From: Gemmatimonadetes bacterium T265
GTDB taxonomy: Bacteria > Gemmatimonadota > Gemmatimonadetes > Gemmatimonadales > Gemmatimonadaceae
Assembly (NCBI GenBank): GCA_019973575.1
Contig: BPUI01000002.1
Location: 186,001-250,000 of the forward strand
Direction of reading: 5' to 3'
DNA: 64,000 nucleotides
Shown here one piece after another: positions 18,311-36,672 of the stretch; within the stretch, counting starts at the first letter, position 1, and each line of letters starts with the position of its first letter. The notes beneath the pieces are model-generated. The model was not told where the DNA came from, did no database searches, and saw only the letters and a list, made by a program, of their open reading frames with translations. A program made the position numbers and the translations under genes.

Positions 18311-20269
18311 ATGCCTTCCGTCACATCACCGTCGTCCGATCCGGCCGAGCGTTCGCCGGTCGTTCCTCCCCGCGGTGTCGCGACCGCGTTGTCCGGCGAA
18401 CCGACCCGCGAGCGCCGGAACTGGCGCACGCGGGTGCGGCTCGACCTCCTGACGCGAAGCGGAGGGCCGGTCCGCTACGGTCTCCTCGCGCTGGTGCTCG
18501 CGCTGACCGTAGCCGTCGCGACGGGGTGGCGCGTGCTGCACCCGGGCGCGCCGGAGGCGGTCTCCGTGGCGTACTCGGAGCTGGCGACCTTCATCGACGC
18601 GAACCGGGTGGGCGACGTACTGGTCGACGCGGGCGGTACGCGGGTGACGGCGCAACTGAAAGCGCGCGAGCTCGTCGGCTTTCACGTCACCGGAGTCGTG
18701 ACGGCGTCCGTTCCGGCGCGCGCGCTCACGGTCGACGTCCTGGACCGGTGGGCGCGCACGGGCGCGCGGGTGCGCGTGGCCGACGCGGACGCGGTGACCG
18801 GCCAGGAACTGGTCCAGATCGTCGGCCTGCTGCTGCTCGCGACCGTCGTCGGATTCACGCTCGTGCGCCAGCGGGGCGGCGGAACCGCGCGCCGGTTTGG
18901 CGCCACCCCGCCCGATCGGCAGCTCACGCTTGCCGACGTCGGGGGCGCGCAGGAAGCCCGCGCCGATGTCCGCGACGTGGTCGCGTATCTGAAAGCGCCG
19001 GAACGCTTCCGCGCCATGGGCGCGAAGTGTCCCAAGGGTCTACTGCTGGTCGGCCCGCCCGGCACCGGGAAAACACTCCTCGCCCGTGCGATCGCGGGCG
19101 AGGCCGGCGTTCCGGTCATCCAGGCCGCCGGCTCCGACTTCAACGAGATGTACGTCGGCGTCGGGTCGAAGCGCGTCCGCCAACTCGCAAAGCAGGCACG
19201 CGAGCAGGCGCCGTGCATCGTCTTCATCGACGAGTTCGACTCGCTCGGCGGCCGTCGCGGGCGGCCGAACCGGTCGGGCGAAGAAGAGGTCACGCTCAAC
19301 CAGCTACTCGTCGAGATGGACGGCATGGCGGGGAGCGAGGGCGTGGTCTGGATGGCGGCGACGAACCGTGAGGACATGCTCGACCCGGCCGTGCGGCGCC
19401 CGGGGCGCTTCGACCGCGTCGTCGAGGTCGGGCTCCCCACGGCCGCGGACCGGCTGGAAATTCTGCGGATCCACGCGCGCGCGGCCAAGCTCGCCCCCGA
19501 CGTCGACCTCGAGCGCCTGGCGCAGCTGACGGTCGGGCACTCGGGCGCCGAGCTCGCCAACCTGCTGAACGAGGCGGCGATCGTCGCGGTGCAGGACGAC
19601 GCGTCGCTGATCACCGCCGCGCACATCGAGCAGGCGCGCGACAAGATCCTGCTCGGCCGCGTGCGGGCGGGCGTCGTCGTGCGCGACGACGAGCGTCGGC
19701 TGATCGCCCTGCACGAGGCGGGGCACGCCGTCGTCGGGCTGATCGCCTGTCCGGAGGACCGGCTGCACAAGGTCACGATCCAGCCGCGCGGCCGGACGAT
19801 GGGCGCGGCGCACTTCGCGCCCGACTCGGACCGCCACCTGCACACGCGCCGGTACCTGCTCGGCGTGCTCGCGAAAACGTTAGGCGGCCGCGCGGCCGAG
19901 CTGGTGTTCGTGGGGCCGGAGGAGATCACCTCGGGCGCGGGCGGAGACCTCGTGCAGGCGACGGGCGTCGCGCGCCGCATGGTCGCCGACTTCGGGATGA
20001 GCGACGAGGTCGGGCTCGTGAGCGCGGACGCCTCGGCGAACGGCGGCGCGCCCTCGTCGCAGCTGCTCGGCCAGATCGACTCGGCGACGCGCGCGCTGAT
20101 CCGCGAGCAGGCGGCGCGCGCCGAGGCGCTGGTCCGCGAGCACCGGGCCGCGGTCGAGGCGGTGGCGGACGCGCTGATCGCGCGCGACGTGCTGAGCGCG
20201 GACGAGGTGATCGCGCTGGCCGAGGCGCACGGGGTCTCGGTGGCACAGCGCCCCCTCGCCGCTGCCTAA
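18311..20269 (+). CDS. Second FtsH-type AAA+ zinc metalloprotease
   Basis: This 652-residue FtsH paralogue has a polar N-terminus of about 50 residues, membrane helices near residues 55-74 and 165-185 with a short periplasmic part, Walker A GPPGTGKT, Walker B CIVFIDEFDSLGG, RRPGRFDR, HEAGHA and TSGAGGDLVQAT. Compared with the copy at 6506 it has FDS for IDA in Walker B, a different pore-side loop (RGRPNRSGEEEVTLNQ) and a shorter tail. It stands alone. Its stop codon lies in a GCCTAAC heptamer and a TTA-GGC pair encodes Leu-Gly in KTLGGR. Two FtsH enzymes may have different substrates; which cannot be told. Confidence 0.92.
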   Translation: MPSVTSPSSDPAERSPVVPPRGVATALSGEPTRERRNWRTRVRLDLLTRSGGPVRYGLLALVLALTVAVATGWRVLHPGAPEAVSVAYSELATFIDANRVGDVLVDAGGTRVTAQLKARELVGFHVTGVVTASVPARALTVDVLDRWARTGARVRVADADAVTGQELVQIVGLLLLATVVGFTLVRQRGGGTARRFGATPPDRQLTLADVGGAQEARADVRDVVAYLKAPERFRAMGAKCPKGLLLVGPPGTGKTLLARAIAGEAGVPVIQAAGSDFNEMYVGVGSKRVRQLAKQAREQAPCIVFIDEFDSLGGRRGRPNRSGEEEVTLNQLLVEMDGMAGSEGVVWMAATNREDMLDPAVRRPGRFDRVVEVGLPTAADRLEILRIHARAAKLAPDVDLERLAQLTVGHSGAELANLLNEAAIVAVQDDASLITAAHIEQARDKILLGRVRAGVVVRDDERRLIALHEAGHAVVGLIACPEDRLHKVTIQPRGRTMGAAHFAPDSDRHLHTRRYLLGVLAKTLGGRAAELVFVGPEEITSGAGGDLVQATGVARRMVADFGMSDEVGLVSADASANGGAPSSQLLGQIDSATRALIREQAARAEALVREHRAAVEAVADALIARDVLSADEVIALAEAHGVSVAQRPLAAA

Positions 20270-23942: not shown

Positions 23943-24045
23943 CGCGGAAGGAAATAGCCGAGTTCGGCCGGCGAGAACGTCTCGCGGCGGGAGACCTGTC
24001 TGGAGAAGACTCGAGTCGGGATGGAACCGCCACCGGATTGCTGTG

Positions 24046-24051
24046 TAGATT
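24046..24051 (+). promoter_or_regulatory. -10 box of a putative short transcription unit
   Basis: TAGATT is followed by GCGGCG, exactly the same 12 bases that lie before the deoC start codon. A transcript would begin near 24058, the first bases of a hairpin. No -35 box is recognised. Confidence 0.35.
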
Positions 24052-24056
24052 GCGGC

Positions 24057-24096
24057 GTCGCCGCGGAAGCGCGGCGACACATCGATGCCCGATGTG
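24057..24096 (+). other. Two consecutive hairpins in a putative 5' leader
   Basis: GTCGCCGCG (24057-24065) pairs with CGCGGCGAC (24070-24078) around GAAG, and CACATCG (24078-24084) pairs with CGATGTG (24090-24096) around a 5-nt loop; they share one base. They lie between the -10 box and a very strong ribosome-binding site and could stabilise the 5' end or control access to it. Confidence 0.4.
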
Positions 24097-24109
24097 CCAC
24101 CCGCAAACG

Positions 24110-24121
24110 AGGAGGTGATCC
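24110..24121 (+). promoter_or_regulatory. Twelve-base perfect Shine-Dalgarno sequence
   Basis: AGGAGGTGATCC is fully complementary to the conserved 3' end of bacterial 16S rRNA (GGATCACCTCCT). GGAGG is followed after 7 nt by TTG at 24123, optimal spacing. Most genes here have weak or no Shine-Dalgarno, so this one is conspicuous. On the other strand it reads as an anti-Shine-Dalgarno in the region upstream of the S9 peptidase gene. Confidence 0.6.
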
Positions 24122-24122
24122 A

Positions 24123-24191
24123 TTGTCTAGTTCCTGTTCGCACGCCGGCCTGACCTGGGCAAACGGTCGCTCGACCGTCGTCGCCCGGTAA
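24123..24191 (+). CDS. Putative 22-residue peptide (leader peptide or microprotein)
   Basis: A TTG-started frame of 22 codons begins 7 nt after a perfect Shine-Dalgarno and ends with TAA at 24189-24191. The peptide begins MSSSCSHAGLTWANG and ends in ...VVAR; it has one Cys and one Trp, no membrane helix and no run of a single amino acid. It is followed by a strong terminator (24241-24272) and, 227 nt on, by the gene of an outer-membrane protein. It could be a leader peptide for attenuation or a free-standing microprotein, or the strong site could be chance. No homologue is known to me. Confidence 0.35.
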   Translation: MSSSCSHAGLTWANGRSTVVAR

Positions 24192-24240
24192 CACTGGGTC
24201 ACCGGCTCTAGCCTCCGTCTCGGGCCGGCGTAGTCGACCG

Positions 24241-24272
24241 CGGCCTCCGTAGCGGACTTGCTACGGAGGCCG
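24241..24272 (+). terminator. Strong hairpin with a competing upstream arm
   Basis: CGGCCTCCGTAGC (24241-24253) pairs perfectly with GCTACGGAGGCCG (24260-24272) around a 6-nt loop, followed by TGTTGCGTTT. The octamer GCCTCCGT also occurs at 24211-24218 and could pair with the same downstream arm (ACGGAGGC), giving two exclusive structures as in attenuators. The other 475 nt of this spacer hold only the elements listed here. Confidence 0.65.
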
Positions 24273-24417
24273 TGTTGCGTTTCCGGGTTGGTGACCGCCA
24301 TCACTCCTTCCGCCGTGTGGCCCCGCCCGGTAACGTTGGCGCGTCATCCGGCAGCCTCCCACCTCGCATCCTCTCTGTCGCGCGCCTCCTTCCCGAGCGC
24401 GACCACGCTCTCAACGC

Positions 24418-26208
24418 GTGTCGACCCGGTCGCTTTCGCCCGCCGCTCCGATGCCCGCCGTGCGCCGCGCCTGCGGCGCCGGCGTGCTGCTCGCGCTCGC
24501 GGGAGGCCGTGCGGCGGCCCAGCGCGAGAGCGCGCCGGCGACGGCGGCCGCAAGTCGCGGCGTACCGGTTGACGGCGCGTGCCGCCGCGTCGAGAGCAGG
24601 ACGAACCTGGCGGAGGTGTCGGGTCGAACGATTGGTACGCTCGACGTCGTCGCCGGCGCGCCGCAGACGCCGCGTGTGCCGTTCCTCGCGCGGCTCGCCG
24701 GTCGCACGCACGTCCGCACGCAGCAGCGGACGCTGCGCCGCTTCTTACTCATCGCGCCACGCGACACCGTCGACACACTCCGCGTCGCCGAGTCGCTGCG
24801 TCGGCTACGACGCCTGGGCTACCTCGACGACGTTCTGCTCGTCGCCAACGACTGCGGCCCGGCGACGCCGCTCGCGGTGACGCTCCTCGCGCGCGACGCG
24901 GTGTCATTGCGCCCCGATCTCCGGTTCAACACCGGCACACGGCCCGACGCCGGGACGGGCACGACGGCCGCGCCTCCGCAGAGCTACAGCGCCGGGTTCG
25001 CGGAGCGGAACCTGCTCGGCACCGGTCGGGATCTCAGCGCGGCAGCGATCGGCACGCGTGACCGGAATGGGTTCGCGGTCGCGGCGAGTGACCCGGCCGT
25101 CCTCGGCAGCCTCTACGCCGTCGGCGCGCGGCTCGCGCGCAATCCGATCGAGAACGCGACCACACTCAGCGTCCGCCCTCCGGACCGTGAGCTGGCCGAG
25201 CTGTGGCGCGGAGAGTTCGCGGTCGGCAGCACGCGCCGCGCCGGCGCCGCCCGGCGTGGCGCAAGTTTCTCGCGCGCGGGTGGCGACGCGCTGCTCGGGC
25301 GTCGGGTCGCGGCCGACGACGGTATCGGGTCGGCCACCTTCCTGATGGCCGGCGCGGAAGCCGAGCGGACGCGGCTCATCGCGGCGCCGAACGCGATCCT
25401 CGGTGGACCGTCAGTCGTGCGCCGCGACTTCGCGGGCGTCGATCTCGGCGCCGGGCGCTACGCGGAGCAGTACGGCGCGATCACGTGGCTCCTGCCGGAC
25501 GCGCGCGTCGTCGACGTGCCACGTGGCGTCGAAGGCGAACTGGTTGCCGGCATCGGGCGCGATCAGGTCGCGCGGCGCTCCGCGGCACACGTCGATTTCT
25601 GGTCGGGCCGGATGTGGCTGCCGCACCCGGATCTGCTCGGCGTCGCGGACGTTTGGGCGTCTGGCTATCTGCAGCGCGGGTCAAACGTCTCGGGCGGGTC
25701 CGCGCGCGCCGCGTTGACGGGCGTCGCGCGGCAGCCCGGGGGGTACCTGTACGGGCGCGTTGCCGCCGAGCGGCTACTCGCGCCAGACCCGGACCAACAG
25801 GCGCTGCTCGGCTTCGACCCGACGGTCCGCATCGTCGGCCGTCAGACGCGCCTCGCGCAAACCGCGGTCGCGGCGCTCGTCGAACGGGACTGGCGCATCG
25901 CGAGCCGCGTCGGGCACCTGAACCTCGATCTCGCCGGGTTCGGCGCGGCCTCGTACCGCGCGTCGGAGCGGACGCTGTCATGGCCAGTTACGCCCGGGCC
26001 TGTCCCGCCACCCGTCGATCAGTTCGTGAGCGCCGTCGGCGGGGGCGTGCACGTCGTGCCGAACGCCGTCGGACGGTCCGCGCTCCGCTTCGACTACGTC
26101 GTCCCGGCTACGCACGTGCGAGGTGGCCGTCGCAACCCGTACGTCACCGCCACCGTCACGCCGTGGATTCTCGTGAACCGATTCCGCGACGGACGGCGCG
26201 GGTTCTAA
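24418..26208 (+). CDS. Outer-membrane beta-barrel protein with POTRA-like N-terminus
   Basis: This 596-residue protein has a signal peptide (MPAVRRACGAGVLLALAGG, cleavage near RAAAQ). Residues about 95-145 (RRFLLIAPRDTVDTLRVAES, LRRLRRLGYLDDVLLVANDC) look like a POTRA domain of the BamA/Omp85 superfamily. The rest is rich in alternating hydrophobic strands with Gly and aromatic residues and ends in Phe (FRDGRRGF), as barrel proteins do. It is a single-POTRA protein, not full-length BamA; a transport or assembly role is inferred. Starts are GTG at 24418 (used) or ATG at 24451, where the signal peptide begins. It may be under the attenuator-like region just upstream. Confidence 0.65.
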   Translation: MSTRSLSPAAPMPAVRRACGAGVLLALAGGRAAAQRESAPATAAASRGVPVDGACRRVESRTNLAEVSGRTIGTLDVVAGAPQTPRVPFLARLAGRTHVRTQQRTLRRFLLIAPRDTVDTLRVAESLRRLRRLGYLDDVLLVANDCGPATPLAVTLLARDAVSLRPDLRFNTGTRPDAGTGTTAAPPQSYSAGFAERNLLGTGRDLSAAAIGTRDRNGFAVAASDPAVLGSLYAVGARLARNPIENATTLSVRPPDRELAELWRGEFAVGSTRRAGAARRGASFSRAGGDALLGRRVAADDGIGSATFLMAGAEAERTRLIAAPNAILGGPSVVRRDFAGVDLGAGRYAEQYGAITWLLPDARVVDVPRGVEGELVAGIGRDQVARRSAAHVDFWSGRMWLPHPDLLGVADVWASGYLQRGSNVSGGSARAALTGVARQPGGYLYGRVAAERLLAPDPDQQALLGFDPTVRIVGRQTRLAQTAVAALVERDWRIASRVGHLNLDLAGFGAASYRASERTLSWPVTPGPVPPPVDQFVSAVGGGVHVVPNAVGRSALRFDYVVPATHVRGGRRNPYVTATVTPWILVNRFRDGRRGF

Positions 26209-28931: not shown

Positions 28932-31355
28932 TCACTCGCCGTACGGCACCCAGACGTTCTTGACCTGCGTCGCCTCGCGGAGGAACGCGCGACCCTCGGC
29001 CTGCCCCGCGTCGTACCAATCGATGGCGTCCCACGCCGTCCAGGTGCGCTTCAGGTTGCCCGCGGACGCGCGCTCCACGTCGGTCCCACCCGCGCGTGTT
29101 CCGTGGTACCAGAGCGCATCGACGTCGTCGTGCTCCGCGAGCACGAGGGCGAGCGGGTCGCGCGCGCCGGTCACGATGTTGACCACGCCGCCCGGCACGT
29201 CGCTCGTATCCAGGACGCCATAGAAGTCGGTGGCGGCGAGCGGGTGTTGTTCGGACGGGACGACAACGACCGCGTTCCCGGTCGCGACAAGCGGCGCGAC
29301 GAGCGACACGAAGCCGAGCAGCGGCGCGTCGTCGGGGCAGGCCACGCCGACGACTCCGATCGGCTCGTGCATCGCGAGCGCGACGGCGCGGATCGGGACG
29401 TCGTGCACCGCGCCGTCGTACTTGTCCGCCCACGCCGCGTAGGTGAACAGCCGCCGCACGGTGGCGTCGACCTCCGCCGTGCCGTCCCCGCAGCCGCGCA
29501 TCGCGTCCAGCCGGCGCGCGAACTCGTCGGCGCGCGCCGAGAGGTTCTCGGCGACGTAGTAGAGCACCTGCGCGCGCGCGTGACCGCTCGTGCGCGCCCA
29601 CCCGGACGCCGCCGCGTGCGCCGCCTCGACGGCGTTGCGCAGATCCTTCCGGTTGCCGTCTCCCACCTCGCCGACCGCGCGTCCGTCCGGGCCGAGCACG
29701 CGGCGCGTGTAGCCCGAATCGGGGCGCGCCTGCTTGCCACCGACGTAGAGCTTCGGGGTGCGGTCGATCGGCAGCAGCGCGCCCGCGGCACGCGGCGTCG
29801 CCGGCGCGGCGGCGCCCGCCTCCGCCGGCCGCGGCGCGACGTTAGGCGTCGGGGCCGGCGTGCGGACCGGCGCGAGGTACTCGTACATCCCCTCGCGACC
29901 GCCCTCGCGGCCGAACCCGCTCTCGCGGTATCCGCCGAAGCCCGCAGCGGCGTCGAACTGGTTGGTCGAGTTGATCCACACCACGCCGGCCTTGACGCGC
30001 GGCGCGACGTCGAGCGCGAGGTTGACGTTCTCCGTCCACACGCTCGCGGCGAGGCCGAACGGCGTGTTGTTCGCGAGCGCCACCGCCTCGGACGGCGTGC
30101 GGAACGGCATCGCGACGGCGACCGGCCCGAAAATCTCGGTCTGCGAGACGGTCGACGCGGGTGACACGCCGGTGAGCAGCGTCGGCGGGTAGAACCACCC
30201 GCCTTGCTCTTCTTCGACCCGCGCCCACGACGGCTGCCAGCACGCCGCGCCCTCGTCGACGCCGCGCGCGACGAGCGCGCGGATGCGCTCGAGTTGGACG
30301 GGCGCGACGATCGCGCCGAGGTCGACGCCCTTGTCGAGTGGTGGGCCCATGCGGAGCCGCTCCATGCGCCAGCGCAGCTTCTCGATCAGCCGGTCGTGGA
30401 CGCCCTCCTGGACGAGCAGCCGCGAGCCCGCGCAGCACACCTGCCCCTGGTTGAACCAGATCGCGTCGACCACGCCCTCGACGACGCTGTCGAGGTCCGC
30501 GTCCTCGAAGACGAGGAACGGGCTCTTGCCGCCGAGTTCGAGCGAGAGCTTCTTGCCGCTGCCCGCCGTCGTGCGGCGGATCGCGCGCCCGACCTCGGTC
30601 GAGCCGGTGAACGCGACCTTGTCGACGCCCGCGTGCGCGACGAGCGCCGCACCGGTGCGTCCGTCGCCGGTGACGACGTTGAGGACGCCCGCCGGGAGCC
30701 CCGCGTCGTGGGCGAGCTCGGCGAAGCAGAGGGCGGTCAGCGGCGTGAACTCGGCGGGCTTCAGCACGACAGTGTTCCCCGCCGCGAGCGCCGGCGCGAC
30801 CTTCCACGCCAGCATGAGGAGCGGAAAGTTCCAGGGGATCACCTGGCCGACGACGCCTAACGGGCCGTAGCCCGGGAACTCGGCGTCGAGGAGCTGCGCC
30901 CACCCGGCGTGGTGGTAGAAGTGTCGCGCGACGAGCGGCACGTCGAGGTCCCGTGTCTCGCGGATGCTCTTCCCGTTGTCGAGCACCTCGAGCACGGCGA
31001 GCAGGCGCGCGTGCTTCTGCACCGCCCGCGCGAGCGCGTACAAATGCCGCGCGCGCCCATGGCCGCCGAGCGCGGCCCACGCCGGTTGCGCGCGACGAGC
31101 CGCGTCGACGGCGCGGTCCACGTCGTCCTCCGTGCCTTGCGGCGCGCGGGCGAGGAGCACCCCCGTTGCGGGCTCGAGGACGTCGAACAGCTCGGCGTCG
31201 GCCGCGCGGTACCAGGCGCCGCCGATGTAGTGCGCCCCCTCCCCGCCCCGCGCCGCGATCCAGCGGCGCGCCTCGGCGTCCGACTCGGGGGCCGGGCCGT
31301 AGCTCATCGACCGGAAGATGTCGGCAACCGTGTTGCCCGCGACCGTGGTGGCCAT
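28932..31355 (-). CDS. ALDH16-type two-domain aldehyde dehydrogenase
   Basis: The 807-residue protein is two aldehyde-dehydrogenase units in one chain. Domain 1 (about residues 30-495) is complete: PWNFPLLMLAWK, FTGSTEVG, LELGGKSPF with the general-base Glu, and the nucleophile in NQGQVCCAGSR. After a Pro/Ala linker, domain 2 (about 530-807) has the NAD-domain part (EPIGVVGVACPDD, VVNIVTGARDP) but no CxxGSR segment, as is typical of bacterial ALDH16. It starts 7 nt after deoC, so a likely role is oxidation of the acetaldehyde made by DeoC. The domain-2 remnant probably serves in dimerisation. Confidence 0.92.
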   Translation of the reverse strand: MATTVAGNTVADIFRSMSYGPAPESDAEARRWIAARGGEGAHYIGGAWYRAADAELFDVLEPATGVLLARAPQGTEDDVDRAVDAARRAQPAWAALGGHGRARHLYALARAVQKHARLLAVLEVLDNGKSIRETRDLDVPLVARHFYHHAGWAQLLDAEFPGYGPLGVVGQVIPWNFPLLMLAWKVAPALAAGNTVVLKPAEFTPLTALCFAELAHDAGLPAGVLNVVTGDGRTGAALVAHAGVDKVAFTGSTEVGRAIRRTTAGSGKKLSLELGGKSPFLVFEDADLDSVVEGVVDAIWFNQGQVCCAGSRLLVQEGVHDRLIEKLRWRMERLRMGPPLDKGVDLGAIVAPVQLERIRALVARGVDEGAACWQPSWARVEEEQGGWFYPPTLLTGVSPASTVSQTEIFGPVAVAMPFRTPSEAVALANNTPFGLAASVWTENVNLALDVAPRVKAGVVWINSTNQFDAAAGFGGYRESGFGREGGREGMYEYLAPVRTPAPTPNVAPRPAEAGAAAPATPRAAGALLPIDRTPKLYVGGKQARPDSGYTRRVLGPDGRAVGEVGDGNRKDLRNAVEAAHAAASGWARTSGHARAQVLYYVAENLSARADEFARRLDAMRGCGDGTAEVDATVRRLFTYAAWADKYDGAVHDVPIRAVALAMHEPIGVVGVACPDDAPLLGFVSLVAPLVATGNAVVVVPSEQHPLAATDFYGVLDTSDVPGGVVNIVTGARDPLALVLAEHDDVDALWYHGTRAGGTDVERASAGNLKRTWTAWDAIDWYDAGQAEGRAFLREATQVKNVWVPYGE

Positions 31356-36069: not shown

Positions 36070-36143
36070 TAGCAGGGGAGGGGCTCGAACCCTCGACCTC
36101 ACGATTATGAGTCGTGCGCTCTGACCAGCTGAGCTACCCTGCC
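36070..36143 (-). tRNA. tRNA with CAT anticodon (elongator Met, or Ile2)
   Basis: The minus strand folds as a 74-nt tRNA without encoded CCA: acceptor GGCAGGG/CCCTGCT (G1-U72 wobble), D stem GCTC/GAGC, anticodon arm CACGA-CTCATAA-TCGTG, variable AGGTC, T arm GAGGG-TTCGAGC-CCCTC, discriminator A. It most resembles elongator tRNA-Met, but a TilS-modified tRNA-Ile2 has the same anticodon and cannot be excluded by eye. Confidence 0.93.
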
Positions 36144-36202
36144 GACTGCACGGGGCGTGCACCGGGCGGCCACGCGTCGGAGCGGGACGTTGGCCTCCTG
36201 AC

Positions 36203-36236
36203 GCGAACGGGCCGGCTGGAAAGCCGGCCCGTTCGC
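36203..36236 (-). terminator. Hairpin terminator after tRNA-fMet
   Basis: GCGAACGGGCCGGCT pairs perfectly (15 bp) with AGCCGGCCCGTTCGC around a GGAA tetraloop, beginning 1 nt beyond the tRNA 3' end. It separates the two tRNA genes, so they are probably separate transcripts. Confidence 0.75.
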
Positions 36237-36237
36237 A

Positions 36238-36672
<435 letters not shown>

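Follow-up and report, generated by a model that had tools for sequence, protein, structure and literature searches.

Attenuator leader peptides of the trpL type combine a short open reading frame with alternative pairing and a terminator, and dual-function small RNAs of the SgrS/SgrT type join a small RNA to a short open reading frame. In Flavobacteriia, rpsU is autoregulated by an extended and unusually complete Shine-Dalgarno (SD) sequence that senses the 16S rRNA tail. A further system of interest here is CC2171 (Rfam family RF01867), a small RNA listed from Caulobacter; we find counterparts of it in several phyla, in most cases a single one in each genome. A search of the literature on CC2171, on AGGAGGUGAUCC small RNAs and on Gemmatimonadota RNAs found nothing on the unit described below.

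This unit lies on the plus strand of a 64,000-nucleotide stretch of Gemmatimonadota DNA (the window), and its features are arranged as follows.

24046-24051, plus strand: TAGATT, a -10-like box 59-64 nt 5' of the SD.
24057-24078, plus strand: 5' hairpin, 9 of 9 bp, at the presumed transcript start.
24079-24095, plus strand: second hairpin, small and weaker, the partner strand being missing in relatives.
24089-24109, plus strand: conserved leader (GCCCGATGTGCCACCC..AA) linking the hairpins to the SD.
24110-24121, plus strand: SD of 12 nt, AGGAGGTGATCC, the exact complement of the 16S rRNA 3' end, with an invariant core.
24123-24191, plus strand: micro-ORF LSSSCSHAGLTWANGRSTVVAR, TTG start, 22 codons, TAA stop.
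24142-24153, plus strand: 5' strand of the long-range helix P1, inside the ORF.
24157-24171, plus strand: GGGCAAACGGTCGCT, an imperfect reverse complement of GGTGATCCATTGTCT that could sequester the SD and start codon.
24184-24198, plus strand: hairpin CCCGG-TAACA-CTGGG, whose loop contains the stop codon.
24220-24231, plus strand: 3' strand of P1.
24239-24274, plus strand: intrinsic terminator, with a 13-bp stem at 24241-24272 and a T-rich tail; predicted transcript end at about 24275-24285.

The preliminary description had listed the TAGATT box, two tight hairpins, the 12-nt SD, a spacing of 7 nt, the 22-codon TTG frame and the 13-bp terminator, and each of these is found where it was placed, the 7 nt being the distance from GGAGG to the start codon. 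It had missed the helix 24142-24153/24220-24231 and the stop-codon hairpin at 24184-24198. Both of the hairpins that it reported exist, although the second is the weaker and is apparently specific to the window genome; at the position of the first, a 5' hairpin of different sequence is present in relatives such as the loci L014, L020, L074 and L097 and in Nitrospinota. The promoter element also stands in part, in that TAGATT is present but a promoter scan found no complete sigma-70 promoter, -35 included, near it, and we therefore grade it only as a -10-like box. The segment 24046-24290 (245 nt) has a folding energy of -133.5 kcal/mol, as compared with -103.7 in shuffled sequences (z -6.2). 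The unit's terminator is the sole terminator-like site on the plus strand between 23700 and 24700, as compared with 0.3 in shuffles counted over both strands together. The unit is flanked by a divergent S9 peptidase gene (start near 23945, minus strand) and by a gene at 24418 on the same strand as the unit, whose protein had no match in a Pfam search and is unclassified. Elsewhere in the window there are two adjacent tRNA genes (36070-36311, minus strand; Rfam), an FtsH-like AAA/M41 protease (18311-20269, plus strand) and an aldehyde dehydrogenase of 807 residues, a single protein that is matched along two stretches (28932-31355, minus strand).

The SD sets this unit apart within its own genome. 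There are three copies of the 12-mer AGGAGGTGATCC in the window genome (5.6 Mb), two of them antisense to the 3' ends of the two 16S rRNA genes and one in the unit, while the shorter GGAGGTGATC occurs 29 times; strong SDs are thus common, but the full complement is not. The 16S tail of the window genome reads GCTGG, which is why a tail pattern containing GTTGG found no match there. Part of the micro-ORF itself resembles the 16S tail and is predicted to be able to pair with the unit's own SD.

In a DNA search of 40 relatives, at least 15 genomes from the family and order of the window genome have a conserved block corresponding to 24087-24210, with 73-94% identity and with the SD and start codon at its centre. 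A sequence-only model (R1), built from 16 aligned loci, matches the leader in 229 of 395 Gemmatimonadota genomes at E<=0.01, nearly always in single copy. In 24 good genomes that R1 does not match, AGGAGGTGATCNNNTG is wholly absent, so that the absence there is likely to be real and not a failure of detection; the RNA is absent from many complete genomes and hence is not universally needed. One divergent Gemmatimonadota copy (L113 in genome G126) lacks GGGCA and the usual P1 sequence (LLSRTGDKGYRERARHVAIR) and may be decaying or of a separate type. Conservation limited to the strain, which the preliminary description had named as an outcome that would speak against a gene, is not what we observe, as the unit reaches other phyla. 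With its direction and parts conserved over the phylum, and with the 12-mer otherwise present only antisense to the 16S ends, the small gene proposed at the outset holds up and the unit is real, not a chance assembly of parts. As one element of the explanation that we consider best, and which we hold with moderate confidence on comparative grounds, it would be a gene for a small RNA some 220 nt long, spanning roughly 24058-24280 on the plus strand.

On a wider scale, an exact scan for AGGAGGTGATCCANTGTCT returns mostly Alphaproteobacteria and Gemmatimonadota, together with one Nitrospinota locus and a few Gammaproteobacteria; nearly all of these loci have a short closed frame and many have a visible terminator. 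For frame, structure, terminator and match counts, the set that we call Alphaproteobacteria includes a few gammaproteobacterial loci and one Nitrospinota locus. A mixed leader model (R2) finds one strong match in 9 of the 10 genomes reached and two in Azospirillum, at 30-39 bits with the next best below 20; it matches 68 of 398 Pseudomonadota genomes (counted at phylum level) and, in the phylum titled Nitrospinota, 29 of 77. The relatives show an enrichment of TANNNT upstream of the SD, at -29 in Alphaproteobacteria, at -40/-41 in Gemmatimonadota and at -65 to -70 in Nitrospinota, where the 5' hairpin comes after this peak. In three Azospirillum loci (L162, L190 and L202) the frame following the same SD and start runs to 57-59 codons with a signal-peptide-like beginning (MSHGASPVVAALFGLAALLTAGIANA...), and may have turned into a secreted small protein.

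An Rfam scan gives end-to-end but sub-threshold matches to CC2171 in the window and at all six other loci first scanned. The curated gathering threshold of RF01867 is 75 bits. The window copy scores 21.2 bits, copies in Gemmatimonadota score 21-36 bits and none of 21 genomes exceeds the threshold, whereas three alphaproteobacterial loci (L133, L157 and L267, from Bosea, Brevundimonas and a Methylobacterium-like genome) reach 86-88 bits. Scores of 36-45 bits are seen in Rhizobium, Bradyrhizobium, Defluviimonas and Pelagibacterium, and 28 in Nitrospinota. The leader, the complete SD and the NUG-UCU start occur in Gemmatimonadota in the order of RF01867, and the unit aligns over the full length of the consensus structure with several non-standard pairs. 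Other Rfam matches at the element (miRNA, CcsR1) are chance or terminator matches.

A rival explanation for this likeness is that the phyla have converged on an ideal SD and second codon, which would be compatible with any function. The 19-mer occurs in viral contigs in ordinary longer genes, mostly of 65 codons, or in bacterial flanks, so a phage origin was rejected and the combination of SD and NTGTCT is not specific by itself. These phage genes with 65-codon frames likewise carry AGGAGGTGATCCATTGTCT, and beyond codon 2 Gemmatimonadota match Alphaproteobacteria weakly (7.2 of 12 positions against 6.2 in shuffles), both of which would be expected under convergence. However, Gemmatimonadota and Nitrospinota have the same 16 nt, TTGTCTAGTCACAGTA, following the SD, and they match at 7.6 of 12 positions beyond codon 2 against 5.0 shuffled; the short frame, terminator and single copy are also shared, and the Rfam scores are graded, so that convergence seems to us a rather unlikely account. 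Common descent of the Gemmatimonadota and Nitrospinota units is well supported and common descent with those of Alphaproteobacteria is likely; a distant relationship to the Caulobacter CC2171 RNA forms part of the same best explanation and is proposed with the same moderate confidence. Eleven related viral contigs (L246, L248, L249, L251, L252, L256, L257, L259-L261 and L264) have the same SD, TTG and TCT in front of a conserved 65-codon gene (LSTTVFDVLN...), which is ordinary and strongly translated and could serve as a control.

Comparison of the loci also provides insights into the structure of the RNA. In an alignment of 45 sequences, covariation is strongest for pairs in the terminator and in P1, where alignment columns 70-206 and 75-201 covary in register with z of 11.3 and 9.4. 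When the 5' strand before GGGCA is paired with a site 40-140 nt downstream, P1 averages 9.7 bp over 75 loci, against 6.4 in shuffles, and is made from 57 distinct helix sequences; in the close group of the window genome it has 11 bp that are mostly invariant, with a few compensated columns. RNAalifold pairs GGTGATCcCTTGTCT, comprising the SD and start, with GGGCAAGcGATCGCC. As the SD and the anti-SD-like parts are nearly invariant, covariation cannot test their pairing, and the minimum predicted fold of the window copy alone lacks the full SD/start hairpin. The SD is nevertheless more paired than in shuffles, with p values that are optimistic because the loci are related (1.6e-8 in Gemmatimonadota and 1.2e-3 in Alphaproteobacteria); its unpaired probability is 0.22 against 0.36 shuffled, a moderate excess of sequestration, which is not seen in Nitrospinota (0.37 against 0.34). 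The stop codon lies in a hairpin loop in a fraction 0.37 of Gemmatimonadota loci (background 0.09) and 0.80 of Nitrospinota loci (background 0.07), and weakly so in Alphaproteobacteria (0.14 against 0.10). P1 and the conserved parts are thus established by comparison, whereas the SD hairpin is a prediction. The 5' strand of P1 falls in the loop of the SD/start hairpin, so the two together would form a pseudoknot.

A stand-alone, structured and terminated RNA with a sub-threshold match to a small RNA family might also act in trans by base pairing with other RNAs, its frame being incidental or a dual-function extra, and Hfq-independent small RNAs do exist. We regard this as rather unlikely: conservation peaks at the SD and start and not at an unpaired seed, the frame is always closed, and Hfq (PF17209) was found in none of 395 Gemmatimonadota genomes, with 5 of 14 controls positive. 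tmRNA was found in all 20 Gemmatimonadota genomes searched, and no tRNA-like domain or tmRNA family score was matched at the element (Rfam). The absence of Hfq together with the presence of tmRNA makes a classic Hfq small RNA or a tmRNA substitute unlikely, and both candidates were set aside, the one for the lack of Hfq in the phylum and the other for the genuine tmRNA elsewhere in the genome. Gemmatimonadota, in which no Hfq was found, nonetheless keep a small RNA that is conserved.

The frame itself is conserved. The first in-frame stop falls at codons 11-22 in all 95 Gemmatimonadota loci, as compared with a stop within codons 10-27 in 45 and 5 of the 95 in the other two frames. The start codon is TTG in 93 of 95 Gemmatimonadota and 19 of 19 Nitrospinota loci and GTG in 88 of 99 of the mostly alphaproteobacterial set, so the combination of a maximal SD and a weak start is a constant feature; codon 2 is mostly TCT. 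This conservation of start, frame and stop position is what a microprotein gene would require, in which a peptide of 11-25 residues is the product and the RNA merely its mRNA, and recognisable peptides are indeed kept within several clades (for example LSSPSTQPNPARASDRRFGN and VSYxKRCHLAGIAR). Yet substitutions between nearest-neighbour pairs are flat over codon positions 1, 2 and 3 (116/123/113, with no third-position excess), and the synonymous share is 0.31 against 0.26 expected at random; this codon test gave no sign of purifying selection on the peptide, from which it follows that the peptide is not the conserved product. The peptides vary between families, and GATCGCC is preserved as nucleotides in two reading frames. 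A weak codon bias could be masked by RNA structure, but a microprotein gene appears improbable to us. Frame, start and stop are kept and the peptide sequence is not. The earlier suggestion of a microprotein mRNA is therefore borne out for the frame and not for codon-position constraint, and of the codons and stems that it proposed to test for covariation, the stems do covary while the codons lack coding constraint.

The genes flanking the unit are shared within some families but differ between families. Beside the unit in the family of the window genome is the divergent S9 peptidase; in another family the divergent gene is a different one and there is a CPBP-type protease-like gene (judged by eye), and in a third the downstream gene is convergent in 18 loci. 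The neighbours in Alphaproteobacteria and Nitrospinota are different again. Terminator-like sites occur within 230 nt past the stop in 36 of 95 Gemmatimonadota, 60 of 98 alphaproteobacterial and 18 of 19 Nitrospinota loci; shuffles gave no such site, and the zone from +700 to +930 gave a total of two. As neighbours vary between lineages and transcription would end at the unit's own terminator, we take it to be a stand-alone gene and not the leader of the gene at 24418; the terminators, the promoter-like box and the neighbours together suggest a stand-alone transcript. A cis-acting leader or attenuator, here for the outer-membrane protein that the preliminary description placed at 24418, is brought to mind by the same-strand gene and by the pairing of leader peptide and terminator, but is highly improbable given a strong terminator and a downstream gene that changes with lineage, is often convergent and is unrelated in the other phyla, no conserved downstream gene under control being found across the lineages compared. 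In ten Rhodobacterales-like loci (L126, L129, L131, L135, L138, L155, L173, L174, L203 and L205) a gene downstream has an RF-1/GGQ domain, as in an ArfB-like ribosome rescue factor (Pfam RF-1, E 1.4e-19 for the L126 copy); this may be coincidence.

As the peptide sequence is not preserved, the RNA probably acts by engaging ribosomes and not by making protein, and with neither a cis target nor a selected peptide, ribosome engagement itself is most likely what is selected. The most constant part of the RNA is the ribosome landing site. We propose, again with moderate confidence, a stand-alone RNA that uses its complementarity to the 16S tail to engage the 30S subunit, and whose output would be the fold, stability or occupancy of the RNA itself; its function, we infer, would be the regulated capture of 30S subunits. 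In this model, the SD and start codon would be paired in a closed form with the 16S-tail-like stretch of the frame. The loop of the resulting hairpin would pair with the 3' side (P1) to give a compact pseudoknot. A free 30S subunit would bind and open the closed form, and translation of 11-25 codons to the fixed stop would unfold both helices. Free 30S subunits may in this way be sensed or buffered by the RNA, the consequence lying in the RNA itself and not in a peptide or a downstream gene. A broader version, that the units form a multi-phylum RNA class that captures or senses 30S subunits by a sequence exactly complementary to the 16S tail, the readout being translation of a micro-ORF of unconstrained sequence, we advance only tentatively. 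Should the RNA indeed gauge or buffer free 30S subunits, then it would act as a general regulator of translation capacity that needs neither Hfq nor a peptide product.

Such an RNA would share features with each of the systems described above while differing from all of them. It resembles tmRNA in being a single-copy RNA whose short ORF would engage ribosomes, but it has no tRNA-like part. With leaders of the trpL type it has in common the short ORF, alternative pairing and terminator, although a conserved downstream gene is absent and the peptide has no runs of regulatory codons. It differs from RNAs of the SgrS/SgrT type in having no Hfq, no evident seed region and no selected peptide. The unusually complete SD is like that of Flavobacteriia rpsU, whereas the unit is stand-alone and encodes no ribosomal protein. 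With CC2171 of Caulobacter it shares the leader CAAC..GAAAGGAGGUGAUCCA-NUG-UCU, the terminator and, as it appears, the 3' structure, and it is distinguished from it by a TTG in place of a GTG start and by the GGGCAAGCGATCGCC element, which is present only in Gemmatimonadota.
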